A stretch of 64,000 nt of DNA from Neoroseomonas alkaliterrae (lineage in GTDB: Bacteria; Pseudomonadota; Alphaproteobacteria; Acetobacterales; Acetobacteraceae), in assembly GCF_014199195.1 (NCBI RefSeq), contig NZ_JACIJE010000003.1, positions 1 through 64,000 on the forward strand, given 5' to 3'. Shown one piece after another: positions 16,740 through 19,741 of this stretch. The notes beneath the pieces are model-generated. The model saw nothing but the letters and a program-made list of their open reading frames with translations. It was not told the DNA's origin and searched no databases. The first letter of the stretch is position 1; the number at the start of each line of letters is the position of its first letter. The position numbers and the translations under genes are program-made.

Positions 16740-18020
16740 ATGACGATGACCGACGCCGCCGCCCGCACCGCGCTCCGTGCCCTCTTCGATGCCGCCGTCG
16801 CCGCGGCCGACCCGCGCCGCGTGCTCGCCCGCCACCTGCCCGAGCGCCCGTCCGGCCGCGTGCTCGTGCTCGGCGCCGGGAAATCCGCCGCGGTCATGGC
16901 GGCGGCGCTGGAGGATGCCTGGCCCGATGTGCCGATGCGGGGCCTCGTCGTCACGCGCTACGGCCACGGCCACCCCACGCGGCTGATCGAGGTCGCCGAG
17001 GCCTCCCACCCGGTGCCGGACGAGGCCGGCGCCGAGGCCGCGCGGCGGATGCTCGCACTGGCCGAGGCCGCGGGGCCGGAGGATCTGGTGCTGTTCCTCG
17101 TCTCGGGCGGCGGCTCCTCGCTCACCACCCTGCCCGCGCCGGGGCTCTCGCTCGCGGATCTCGTCGCGGTCAACAAGGCGCTGCTCGCCTCGGGCGCGAC
17201 CATCCACGAGATGAACTGCATCCGCCGGCACCTCTCCGCCTTCTCGGGCGGCAGGCTCGCGGCGGCGGCGCATCCGGCCCGCGTCGTCACGCTCGCCATC
17301 TCCGACGTGCCGGGGGACGATCCCACCGTCATCGCCTCCGGCCCCACCGTCCCCGACCCCTCGACCTTCGCGCAGGCCCGCGCCCTTGTCGCGCATTACC
17401 GGATGGCGCTGCCGCCCGCCGTCACCGCGCATCTCGCCGCCGCCGCCGAGGAAAGCCCCAAGCCCGGCGACCCTCGCCTCGCAACGACCGACTACCGCTT
17501 CATCGCCACGCCGCTGATGGCACTCGAGGCCGCGGCGGCGCATGCGCGCGGGCTCGGCCTCACGCCCCTCATCCTCGGCGATGCGCTGGAAGGCGAGGCG
17601 CGCGAACTCGGCACCGCGCTGGCCGGAATCGCGCTCTCGGCCCGCGCCCATGGCCACCCGCTGCCCGCCCCCTGCGTGCTGCTCTCGGGCGGGGAGAGCA
17701 CCGTGACCATCCGGGCGGAGAAGCCCGGGCGCGGCGGCCGCAACGCCGAATGCCTGCTCGGCTGCACGCTGGCGCTCTCGGGTGCCTCCGGCATCTGGGC
17801 CCTGATGGCCGATACCGACGGGATTGACGGCTCCGAGGACAATGCCGGGGCCATCGCCACGCCCGATACGCTGGCCCGCGCGCACGCCGCCGGCCTCGAC
17901 GCGCGCGCCCTGCTCGCCGCCCATGACAGCCACCGCCTTTTCGCCACGCTGGACGACCTGGTGCGAACCGGACCGACGCTGACCAACGTCAACGATTTCC
18001 GGGCCCTGCTGGTCGCCTGA
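16740..18020 (+). CDS. Glycerate 2-kinase (TtuD/GckA type, DUF4147)
   Basis: 426-residue enzyme of the family variously annotated as glycerate 2-kinase or hydroxypyruvate reductase (TtuD). It most likely phosphorylates glycerate to 2-phosphoglycerate. The family signatures are RVLVLGAGKSAAVMAAA (residues ~40-56), LFLVSGGGSSL, NCIRRHLSAFSGGRLA, SDVPGDDPTVIASGPTVPD and the C-terminal GRGGRNAE and TDGIDGSEDNAG. The next gene is a pyruvate kinase, so the pair connects glycerate to pyruvate through PEP. This matches known tartrate and glyoxylate utilisation clusters. Confidence 0.92.
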   Translation: MTMTDAAARTALRALFDAAVAAADPRRVLARHLPERPSGRVLVLGAGKSAAVMAAALEDAWPDVPMRGLVVTRYGHGHPTRLIEVAEASHPVPDEAGAEAARRMLALAEAAGPEDLVLFLVSGGGSSLTTLPAPGLSLADLVAVNKALLASGATIHEMNCIRRHLSAFSGGRLAAAAHPARVVTLAISDVPGDDPTVIASGPTVPDPSTFAQARALVAHYRMALPPAVTAHLAAAAEESPKPGDPRLATTDYRFIATPLMALEAAAAHARGLGLTPLILGDALEGEARELGTALAGIALSARAHGHPLPAPCVLLSGGESTVTIRAEKPGRGGRNAECLLGCTLALSGASGIWALMADTDGIDGSEDNAGAIATPDTLARAHAAGLDARALLAAHDSHRLFATLDDLVRTGPTLTNVNDFRALLVA

Positions 18021-18026
18021 CGATGA

Positions 18027-18043
18027 ACTTACATTTCGTAAGT
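18027..18043. promoter_or_regulatory. Candidate operator palindrome 1 upstream of pyruvate kinase
   Basis: Perfect inverted repeat ACTTAC-ATTTC-GTAAGT, 49 bases before the pyruvate kinase ATG. It overlaps a second dyad, TTTCG / CGAAA (18034-18050). The core CTTAC-N5-GTAAG recurs exactly at 18069-18083. The segment is clearly less GC-rich than its surroundings. The binding protein is inferred, not known. Confidence 0.6.
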
Positions 18044-18068
18044 CACGAAAGCGTCTCGGACGCGCATG

Positions 18069-18083
18069 CTTACTCGTGGTAAG
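18069..18083. promoter_or_regulatory. Candidate operator palindrome 2 upstream of pyruvate kinase
   Basis: Perfect inverted repeat CTTAC-TCGTG-GTAAG, with the same arms and spacer length as palindrome 1. The centres are 41 bases apart, close to four helical turns. It overlaps the AAGGG ribosome binding site (18081-18085), so a bound protein could block transcription and a hairpin could hinder translation. Confidence 0.6.
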
Positions 18084-18091
18084 GGTGCGCC

Positions 18092-19741
18092 ATGCGCGAC
18101 CCGATCCTGGAAGAGATCTTCGCCCGCCGCGGCGCGATCACCCGCATCGCCACCGAACTCGGCATCTCCACCGCCGCCGTCTCGCAATGGCGCCGCGTGC
18201 CCGATGAGCGGGTGCTCGACGTCGCCCGCATCCTCGGGATGGACCCGAAGGCCCTGCGCCCGGACCTCGCCTCCCCCCCGCCGCCGAAACCGGAAGGGCC
18301 GCTCCGCATGGCCAGCCGCACCGCACTCCGCCGCCGCCGGCGCACGAAGATCATCGCGACGCTCGGCCCCTCCTCCTCCACGCCCGAGATCATCGAACGC
18401 CTCTACCGCGGCGGGGCCGACGTCTTCCGCCTCAACTTCTCCCATGGCAGCCACGAGGACCACGCCGCGCGCATCGCCATGATCCGCGCGGTCGAGCGCA
18501 AGGTCGGCCGGCCCATCGGCATCCTCGCCGACGTGCAGGGGCCGAAGCTGCGGGTCGGGCGCTTCCAGGCCGGCCGCGTCCAGCTCCAGACGGGCCAGAC
18601 ATTCCGCCTCGATCTCAACCCCACGCCGGGGGATGCGCGCCGCGTCAACCTCCCCCATCCCGAGATCATCCGCGCCGCGCAGATCGGCACCACGCTGCTG
18701 CTCGACGACGGCAAGCTGCGCCTGCGCGTCGCCCGCGTCCGCCCCGACCACCTGGAGACCGAGGTCGTCACCGGCGGCCCGCTCTCGGACCGCAAGGGCG
18801 TGAACGTGCCCGACGTGGTGCTGCCCATCCCCGCCCTCACCGAGAAGGACCGCGCCGATCTCGACTTCGTGCTGCCGCTCGGCATCGAGTACATCGGCCT
18901 CTCCTTCGTCCAGCGGCCGGAGGACGTGGCCGAGACGAAGCGCATCGCCGACGGGCGCGCCTGGGTCATGGTGAAGATGGAGAAGCCCCAGGCGCTCGAG
19001 AACCTCGATGGCATCCTCGCGCTGACCGACTGCGTGATGGTCGCGCGCGGTGATCTCGGCGTGGAACTCCCGCCCGAGGAAGTGCCGCTGGCGCAGAAGC
19101 GCATCGTCCGCACCGCGCGCGCGCTCGGCAAGCCGGTGGTGGTCGCGACGCAGATGCTCGAATCCATGATCACGGCGCCGAGCCCGACGCGCGCCGAGGT
19201 CAGCGATGTCGGCACCGCGGTCTTCGACGGCGCCGATGCGGTGATGCTCTCGGCCGAGACCGCCGCCGGCCAGTATCCCTACGAGGCGGTCAACATGATG
19301 GACCGCATCGTCGCGCGGGTGGAGCAGGACCCGGACTGGCGGCGCCTGACCGACGCCTCCCGCCCCGCGCCCGAGCGCACCAGCGCCGGCGCCATCGCCA
19401 CCGCCGCCCGCCAGGTGGCCGAGACGATCGATGCGGAGGTCATCGCGACCTTCTCCTCCACCGGCTCGACCACGCTGCGGGTGGCGCGGGAACGCCCCAA
19501 CTGCCCGATCCTCGGCCTGACCGCGAGCGGTGCGACGGCGCGCCGCATGGCCGTGATCTGGGGCGTGCATCCGCTGGAGGTCAGCGAGATCCACTCCATG
19601 ACCGAGATGGTCGCCCGCGCGGTGCGCGCGGCGCAGACCGAAGGCTTCGCCACCCATGGCGACGAGGTGGTGGTCACGGCCGGCGTTCCCTTCGGCACGC
19701 CGGGGACGACGAACGCGCTGCGGGTGGCGGTGGTGAAGTGA
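18092..19741 (+). CDS. pyk: Pyruvate kinase with N-terminal YdaS-like helix-turn-helix domain
   Basis: 549-residue protein. Residues ~75-549 are a full pyruvate kinase (PEP + ADP to pyruvate + ATP): RTKIIATLGPSS, RLNFSHGSHE, DVQGPKLRVG, VKMEKPQALENLD, MVARGDLGVELP, ATQMLESMI and DAVMLSAETAAGQYP. Residues 1-60 look like a YdaS/Cro-type DNA-binding domain (AITRIATELGISTAAVSQWRR, then DPKALRPDL), joined by a Pro-rich linker (ASPPPPKPEG). No stop separates them. ATG at 18092 has AAGGG six bases upstream. An internal ATG at 18308 (MASRTALRRRRR) could make kinase alone. Twin palindromes precede the gene, suggesting autoregulation. The kinase call is firm; the DNA-binding role is inferred. Confidence 0.93.
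   Translation: MRDPILEEIFARRGAITRIATELGISTAAVSQWRRVPDERVLDVARILGMDPKALRPDLASPPPPKPEGPLRMASRTALRRRRRTKIIATLGPSSSTPEIIERLYRGGADVFRLNFSHGSHEDHAARIAMIRAVERKVGRPIGILADVQGPKLRVGRFQAGRVQLQTGQTFRLDLNPTPGDARRVNLPHPEIIRAAQIGTTLLLDDGKLRLRVARVRPDHLETEVVTGGPLSDRKGVNVPDVVLPIPALTEKDRADLDFVLPLGIEYIGLSFVQRPEDVAETKRIADGRAWVMVKMEKPQALENLDGILALTDCVMVARGDLGVELPPEEVPLAQKRIVRTARALGKPVVVATQMLESMITAPSPTRAEVSDVGTAVFDGADAVMLSAETAAGQYPYEAVNMMDRIVARVEQDPDWRRLTDASRPAPERTSAGAIATAARQVAETIDAEVIATFSSTGSTTLRVARERPNCPILGLTASGATARRMAVIWGVHPLEVSEIHSMTEMVARAVRAAQTEGFATHGDEVVVTAGVPFGTPGTTNALRVAVVK

Follow-up and report, generated by a model that had tools for sequence, protein, structure and literature searches.

Gene-regulating enzymes are already known as a class. 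The trigger enzymes PutA, BirA, NadR, PepA and PyrH of Escherichia coli double as transcription factors, and PutA, whose DNA binding is confined to the spacer separating its gene from putP, acts there as a repressor (excerpts of PMC8249747). BzdR carries an HTH-XRE domain fused to a shikimate-kinase-like domain (PMC3602430, in part), and PckR of Rhizobiales is predicted to be a repressor of pykA and an activator of pckA (PMC4052901, in part); further sources cover FruR (PMC9609185) and phage Cro (PMC4488713). Here we describe a gene of Neoroseomonas alkaliterrae that joins an N-terminal helix-turn-helix (HTH) domain to pyruvate kinase. It lies in the first 64,000 nucleotides of contig NZ_JACIJE010000003.1, the whole stretch analyzed, which we call the window. 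New here is the pair of CTTA-N7-TAAG palindromes ahead of this HTH-pyruvate kinase gene. Judging from the sequences compared below, the protein is likely to be a trigger enzyme: a competent pyruvate kinase with a Cro-like HTH that would bind CTTA-N7-TAAG, autoregulate its own promoter and probably act at pckA. The features of the locus are as follows.

18028 to 18042, unstranded: palindrome 1, CTTACATTTCGTAAG, candidate operator; starts 64 bp before the ATG and is conserved in relatives
18069 to 18083, unstranded: palindrome 2, CTTACTCGTGGTAAG, candidate operator; ends 8 bp before the ATG and is exact in 32 of 32 genus loci
18092 to 19741 (stop included), plus strand: HTH-pyruvate kinase fusion gene, an open frame
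18092 to 18271, plus strand: N-terminal Cro-like HTH domain, residues 1 to 60 (P22_Cro, PDB profile matches, AlphaFold model, fold ranking)
18272 to 18334, plus strand: proline-rich linker, residues 61 to 81, containing the internal ATG 18308
18338 to 19291, plus strand: pyruvate kinase barrel domain, residues 83 to 400 (PF00224, 1e-109; catalytic motifs)
19391 to 19726, plus strand: pyruvate kinase C-terminal domain, residues 434 to 545 (PF02887, 2.2e-35)

The fusion is genuine. A single open frame without internal stop runs from the ATG at 18092 to 19741 and encodes 549 amino acids. Since a TAA lies in frame at 18080 to 18082, four codons 5′ of the fusion ATG, an ATG start further upstream is impossible and the HTH is the N-terminus of the frame. 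In the source genome, the full protein gave one match only (E up to 0.001), which makes the fusion the sole pyruvate kinase matched there. In a scan of named genomes, 88 relatives were found and 80 were kept; HTH and kinase were in frame at all 80 loci, as in the original prediction, which had seen no stop or frame change between them. The N-terminal 72 residues were also matched in 35 of 59 genomes, 33 of them within the genus (33 of 35 genus genomes, source included), and the two genus genomes without this match are incomplete assemblies (85% and 77% complete). An assembly slip in the C-run of the linker, which had been a worry, is ruled out by this N-terminal stretch in same-genus genomes and by the common frame in the 80 loci. 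As a conserved kinase-only start, the ATG at 18308 was rejected: a Met near its position is present in 53 of 61 sequences (those of the 80 whose linker end was recognized by the pattern).

Both palindromes share the half-sites CTTAC-N5-GTAAG, the general form being CTTA-N7-TAAG, and palindrome 2 overlaps the Shine-Dalgarno (SD)-like AAGGG (18081 to 18085). Upstream regions were parsed for 32 of 33 genus loci. Site 2 was exact in all 32 and site 1 in 16; the remaining 16 form a clade of smaller genomes, known mostly from lake-type metagenome-assembled genomes (MAGs), in which site 1 usually reads CTTT-N7-TAAG. The 80 named loci share species with the genus set, and the two sets are not independent. 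Within 150 bp upstream, two exact sites were found in 34 of the named loci, one in 44 and none in 2, the last having one-mismatch sites at equivalent places. With one mismatch allowed, both sites were present in 62 of the 80, at a start-to-start distance of 41 or 42 bp in 50 cases and of 37 to 40 bp in 12. Within 100 bp upstream, the 80 genes have 112 sites between them, with 78 genes hit, compared to a mean of 0.33 and a maximum of 3 genes hit in 200 dinucleotide shuffles. When the spacing was scanned from N0 to N14, N7 gave the 112 sites and the other spacings 0 to 6, except for N12 with 38, a count that reflects the longer palindrome found in the clade of small-genome MAGs. Among relatives, the seven bases between the half-sites differ, as they would in a dyad read by a protein. 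Conserved operator-like palindromes at the gene's own promoter are what self-control predicts, and they support the earlier idea that the fusion protein may control its own gene.

As a control for a motif shared by pyk promoters in general, 60 loci from a sample of the family were fetched, 23 fused and 37 unfused, the unfused being mostly the best-scoring and hence closest rows. A gene was considered unfused if it had no AAVSQW-like word in frame and if its alignment started at query residue 39 to 78. An exact site was present within 700 bp upstream of the kinase core in 19 of the 23 fused genes and in none of the 37 unfused ones, for two of which (L148 and L166) upstream sequence was limited to 498 and 655 bp. 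The site is absent even from L142 to L144, with kinases 86 to 88% identical; a site with one mismatch lies 489 bp ahead of the kinase core in a single unfused gene, L179. Furthermore, the 4.2-Mb source genome harbors four CTTA-N7-TAAG sites in all, two of them ahead of the fusion gene. In 13 genus genomes, selected out of 35, we counted 50 sites (2 to 5 each), while a control pattern, the site read backwards, occurred 5 to 25 times per genome. The pyk pair is present in every one of these genomes and accounts for 26 of the 50 sites, and CTTA-N7-TAAG is therefore close to private to the fusion gene. A target was assigned for all but 10 of the 24 non-pyk sites.

The N-terminal domain was assigned by profile and by model. 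Residues 1 to 72 alone matched P22_Cro (PF14549) at 2.1e-7 and 31.1 bits, above the Pfam gathering cutoff of 30.2, which the whole protein did not reach (26.5 bits). For YdaS_toxin (PF15943), the score was 25.9 bits at best, below the cutoff of 30. The DNA-binding-type domain proposed originally is real and conserved; as to its label "YdaS/Cro-like", the curated cutoffs place the domain nearer P22 Cro than YdaS. In line with this, a profile search of the PDB returned Cro 3bd1 (1.2e-6), P22 Cro 1rzs (3.5e-6) and also 5w8y. The structure prediction suggested at the outset yielded an AlphaFold model of the N-terminus (28 sequences) with five helices and a mean predicted local distance difference test score (pLDDT) of 76.8, in which the helices at residues 15 to 23 and 27 to 31 form the HTH motif. 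The P22 c2 repressor 3jxb was the top-ranked PDB fold (probability, 0.95; E, 0.47). Foldseek returned no hit with E below 0.001 for this model in two libraries, and the fold placement relies on rank and probability rather than on E. In the full-length model (25 sequences; mean pLDDT, 80.4), residues 67 to 81 are below 50, and the linker is, as modeled, a flexible, disordered tether.

The ratio of nonsynonymous to synonymous substitution rates (dN/dS; 55 pairs from 11 genus sequences) was 0.24 for the HTH and 0.13 for the kinase, the former value indicating that the domain is under constraint. Twenty HTH positions, AAVSQW among them, are invariant across 14 diverse members. This is partly a result of selection by the patterns of the named-genome scan (STAAVSQW and MRDPxLE..), and the conservation of both words is to be read accordingly. 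In two loci (L059 and L123), the N-terminus is doubled as MRDPSLRDPALE, which keeps the distance between the ATG and site 2 and displaces the HTH by five codons. One genome (L035, G028:C1) contains a second, 43%-identical HTH that ends in a tail resembling a CcdA-type antitoxin.

Residues 83 to 545 are pyruvate kinase: TIGR01064 (497.5 bits; cutoff, 306.4), PF00224 and PF02887 are all above their curated cutoffs and cover the full-length barrel and C-terminal domains. The catalytic motifs NFSHG, K..E, ARGDLG, TQMLESM and TRAE were found in 23 of 23 fused family members, and the catalytic-Lys pattern matched in 22 of the 37 unfused genes. Based on these motifs, the kinase part is predicted to be catalytically competent. 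An enzyme with catalytic motifs and a DNA-binding-type domain are thus joined in one polypeptide, which is how a trigger enzyme is recognized at the sequence level.

The fusion is a feature of Roseomonas-group Acetobacteraceae. The 80 named loci come from entries titled Neoroseomonas, Roseomonas, Falsiroseomonas, Plastoroseomonas, Humitalea, Siccirubricoccus, Belnapia, Roseococcus, Rubritepida, Craurococcus or Pararoseomonas, or from MAGs, a part of which are titled merely Acetobacteraceae, Rhodospirillales or Alphaproteobacteria; two are titled Asaia. In the family sample, the kinase was matched in 192 of 200 genomes; among the matches listed, 26 (source included) begin at query residue 1 and the others at 32 to 79. 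A tree of 61 kinase cores shows a patchy distribution of the fusion within one 40-row part (support, 81), most simply explained by an old gain followed by several losses. To learn how far the fusion is conserved, the original prediction had proposed searches with residues 1 to 72 and with the full protein; they recovered it in the Roseomonas group. Outside Acetobacteraceae, no pyruvate kinase fusion was seen in the class and phylum samples at a profile E of up to 1e-6, a threshold that a more diverged fusion would escape, and a fusion widespread across bacteria was dismissed. At this threshold, the N-terminal profile matched 9 genomes of the class sample (385 in all) and 18 of the phylum sample (398), the source being counted in each. 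Apart from that of the source, the matching frames comprise 77 to 328 amino acids, too short for a pyruvate kinase fusion; the exception, in G050, has 588 amino acids and is not a pyruvate kinase.

The frames of 15 class and phylum loci (L203 to L210 and L280 to L286) were read and comprised 12 TorD-like proteins, two small HTH proteins and the G050 frame. The 12 (L203, L204, L205, L206, L208, L209, L280 and L282 to L286; frames of 271 to 328 amino acids) have the HTH fused to a domain of about 200 residues, which in these class relatives we take to be a TorD-like chaperone domain. No common palindrome was clear by eye in six of the TorD-fusion promoters. In the G050 frame (L210; G050:C86, minus strand), a Cro-like HTH shares one frame with a second, enzyme-like part, presumably NAD(P)H-hydrate epimerase/dehydratase-like. 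Two copies of GTAAGCATAACTT lie 5′ of this frame, the second being a perfect palindrome, GTAAG-N5-CTTAC. L210 is possibly a second enzyme with its own candidate operator.

Eleven of the 24 non-pyk sites, one each in 11 of the 13 genus genomes, lie 178 to 194 bp upstream of pckA, which encodes phosphoenolpyruvate (PEP) carboxykinase, and inside the 3′ end of the neighboring PNPOx/DUF2470 gene (10 of these 11 pckA loci were picked because they had the site). In the 11 overlapped genes, 15 TTA codons fall within the sites and none among 260 Leu codons elsewhere; TTA is equally absent from 618 Leu codons of 14 pyruvate kinase genes and from 422 of the 11 pckA genes. The same codon, TTA in the 11, encodes Pro in four genus genomes without the site (G003, G015 and two MAGs) and Ser in one MAG. 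The downstream end of the site is read as ..TA AGC in the overlapped gene. None of 22 unfused pckA loci had an exact site; these loci represent 21 genomes, as nine of the 30 unfused genomes searched gave no pckA match. Outside the genus, 8 of 23 fused genomes have a one-mismatch site ahead of pckA, versus 1 of the 22 unfused loci. From these comparisons, pckA is predicted to be, probably, a second target of the fusion protein. In L038 and its relatives, the hugZ-like 3′ end upstream of pckA shows conserved and unusual AT-ending codons (GGT AAC ... GTT CGN CTT) beside the site; the stretch is also present in G003 and G015, which are without the site, and is perhaps the site of another regulator.

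A gene for a flavin adenine dinucleotide (FAD)-dependent oxidoreductase is a weaker candidate for a third target. Of the 11 genus genomes that have this gene, 3 carry an exact site 60 to 63 bp upstream (L039 at 1501 to 1515, L185 and L187), and 4 more have a one-mismatch site at -59 to -73. No exact site was found in three fused genomes outside the genus, one of which has a one-mismatch site at -29, and neither type of site in two unfused genomes. In the source genome, the gene on the other side of the oxidoreductase site resembles, by eye, a transporter binding protein. The upstream neighbor of the fusion gene is the following:

16812 to 18020, plus strand: glycerate 2-kinase (DUF4147 and MOFRL); 16812 marks the start of the searched stretch rather than a called start codon

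Pyruvate kinases are tetramers, and paired HTH domains on the kinase oligomer would bind each palindrome. At a distance of 41 to 42 bp, about four helical turns, the two palindromes would share one DNA face, suited to one tetramer. Since site 2 covers the bases just before the start codon, including the SD-like AAGGG, the bound protein should repress pyk. PEP or an allosteric effector may alter binding, an idea that the original prediction put forward for PEP and fructose-bisphosphate, so that the ligand state of the enzyme would set its own level. In the Neoroseomonas-type genus, binding ahead of pckA would couple the two PEP-node enzymes, one glycolytic and one gluconeogenic; repression of pyk with activation of pckA, as predicted for PckR in the available part of PMC4052901, is the pattern one would guess by analogy. 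More tentatively, we propose that pyruvate kinase is itself a PEP-node transcription factor, the oligomer of which would span the pyk operators, sense PEP or effectors and act at pckA, replacing regulators of the Cra/PckR type.

Several observations weigh against a trigger enzyme acting at pyk and pckA. The exact site is missing in 4 of 24 fused genes (source included), all four of them with related half-sites: three have TTAAG at about -63, -43 and -23, a 20-bp repeat corresponding to two helical turns, and one (L161) has CTTA-N5-TAAG. No sigma-70 promoter was found in 17900 to 18200, and no terminator either. Fused and unfused genes are clustered on the tree, where 7 changes are needed and only 2 are forced by well-supported branches, and an independent-pairs test, with just 2 supported pairs, lacked the power to reach significance. 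Within the genus, G003, G015 and 4 of 4 small-genome MAGs have no pckA site, and outside it none of the 23 fused genomes has an exact one; the 11 sites may be a single inherited gain. Finally, P22 Cro operators have TAAG and CTTA in the opposite order. This polarity also favors the explanation that the palindromes belong to a different transcription factor and that the kinase HTH binds elsewhere or is purely structural. Indeed, in Rhizobiales and Rhodobacterales, control of pyk and pckA is predicted to lie with separate LacI-type regulators, PckR and GapR (PMC4052901, in part). However, loss of the HTH should not remove the sites of a separate factor, and here they are absent from all 37 unfused relatives compared, including some with closely similar kinases. 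Together with the near-private association of the sites with the fusion gene, this makes a different factor unlikely.

On another reading, the HTH is a functionless leftover of a past gene fusion, decayed or neutral. This would fit the patchy fusion, seemingly lost several times while the kinase stayed, and a dN/dS about twice that of the kinase. We consider it very improbable, since this dN/dS is still well below 1, 20 positions are invariant (partly by scan-pattern selection) and the operator-like sites are maintained. A narrower form of the trigger-enzyme reading, self-regulation only, with the pckA and oxidoreductase sites as chance occurrences or inherited passengers, is quite possible. 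The pckA site lies within an upstream open reading frame at some distance from pckA. Of the genera tested, a single one has it in exact form, and the 11 genomes could all have inherited it from one gain; for the oxidoreductase, just 3 of 11 genomes have an exact site. On the other hand, TTA is confined to the site in the overlapped gene, the ends of the pckA site are constant while its inner bases vary, and one-mismatch sites are more frequent ahead of pckA in fused genomes outside the genus than in unfused ones, all of which argues for a function beyond pyk.

Searches of an open-access library, with most subscription papers outside its coverage, listed no paper on a pyruvate kinase that binds DNA or is fused to an HTH, and the five E. 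coli trigger enzymes named in the excerpts of PMC8249747 do not include pyruvate kinase. If the fusion protein acts as proposed, the flux of the last glycolytic step would be sensed directly by the protein performing it, without a separate sensor. The many fused and unfused sister species offer natural before/after comparisons for the gain or loss of an enzyme's regulatory role, and the operator prediction makes the DNA-binding idea directly testable. The likeness to PutA is that of a metabolic enzyme acting on its own promoter, predicted for the pyruvate kinase fusion from sequence alone. The DNA-binding domain of PutA is a ribbon-helix-helix, whereas the fusion enzyme is a central glycolytic kinase with a Cro-like domain. 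With BzdR, the fusion shares the order of N-terminal HTH, linker and kinase-derived domain, but the kinase domain of BzdR is read as inactive (PMC3602430, in part), while the fusion keeps its catalytic motifs and is the sole pyruvate kinase matched in its genome. The resemblance to P22 Cro/YdaS lies in the P22_Cro score of 31.1 bits, the matches to 3bd1 and 1rzs and the top-ranked P22 c2 fold; yet phage Cro is a free small protein, whereas the Cro-like domain of the fusion, for which the YdaS cutoff was not reached, forms the first 60 residues of an enzyme. Like Cra/FruR, PckR and GapR, the fusion protein would regulate both pyk and pckA, but those are separate LacI-family sensors, whereas here the sensor would be pyruvate kinase itself.
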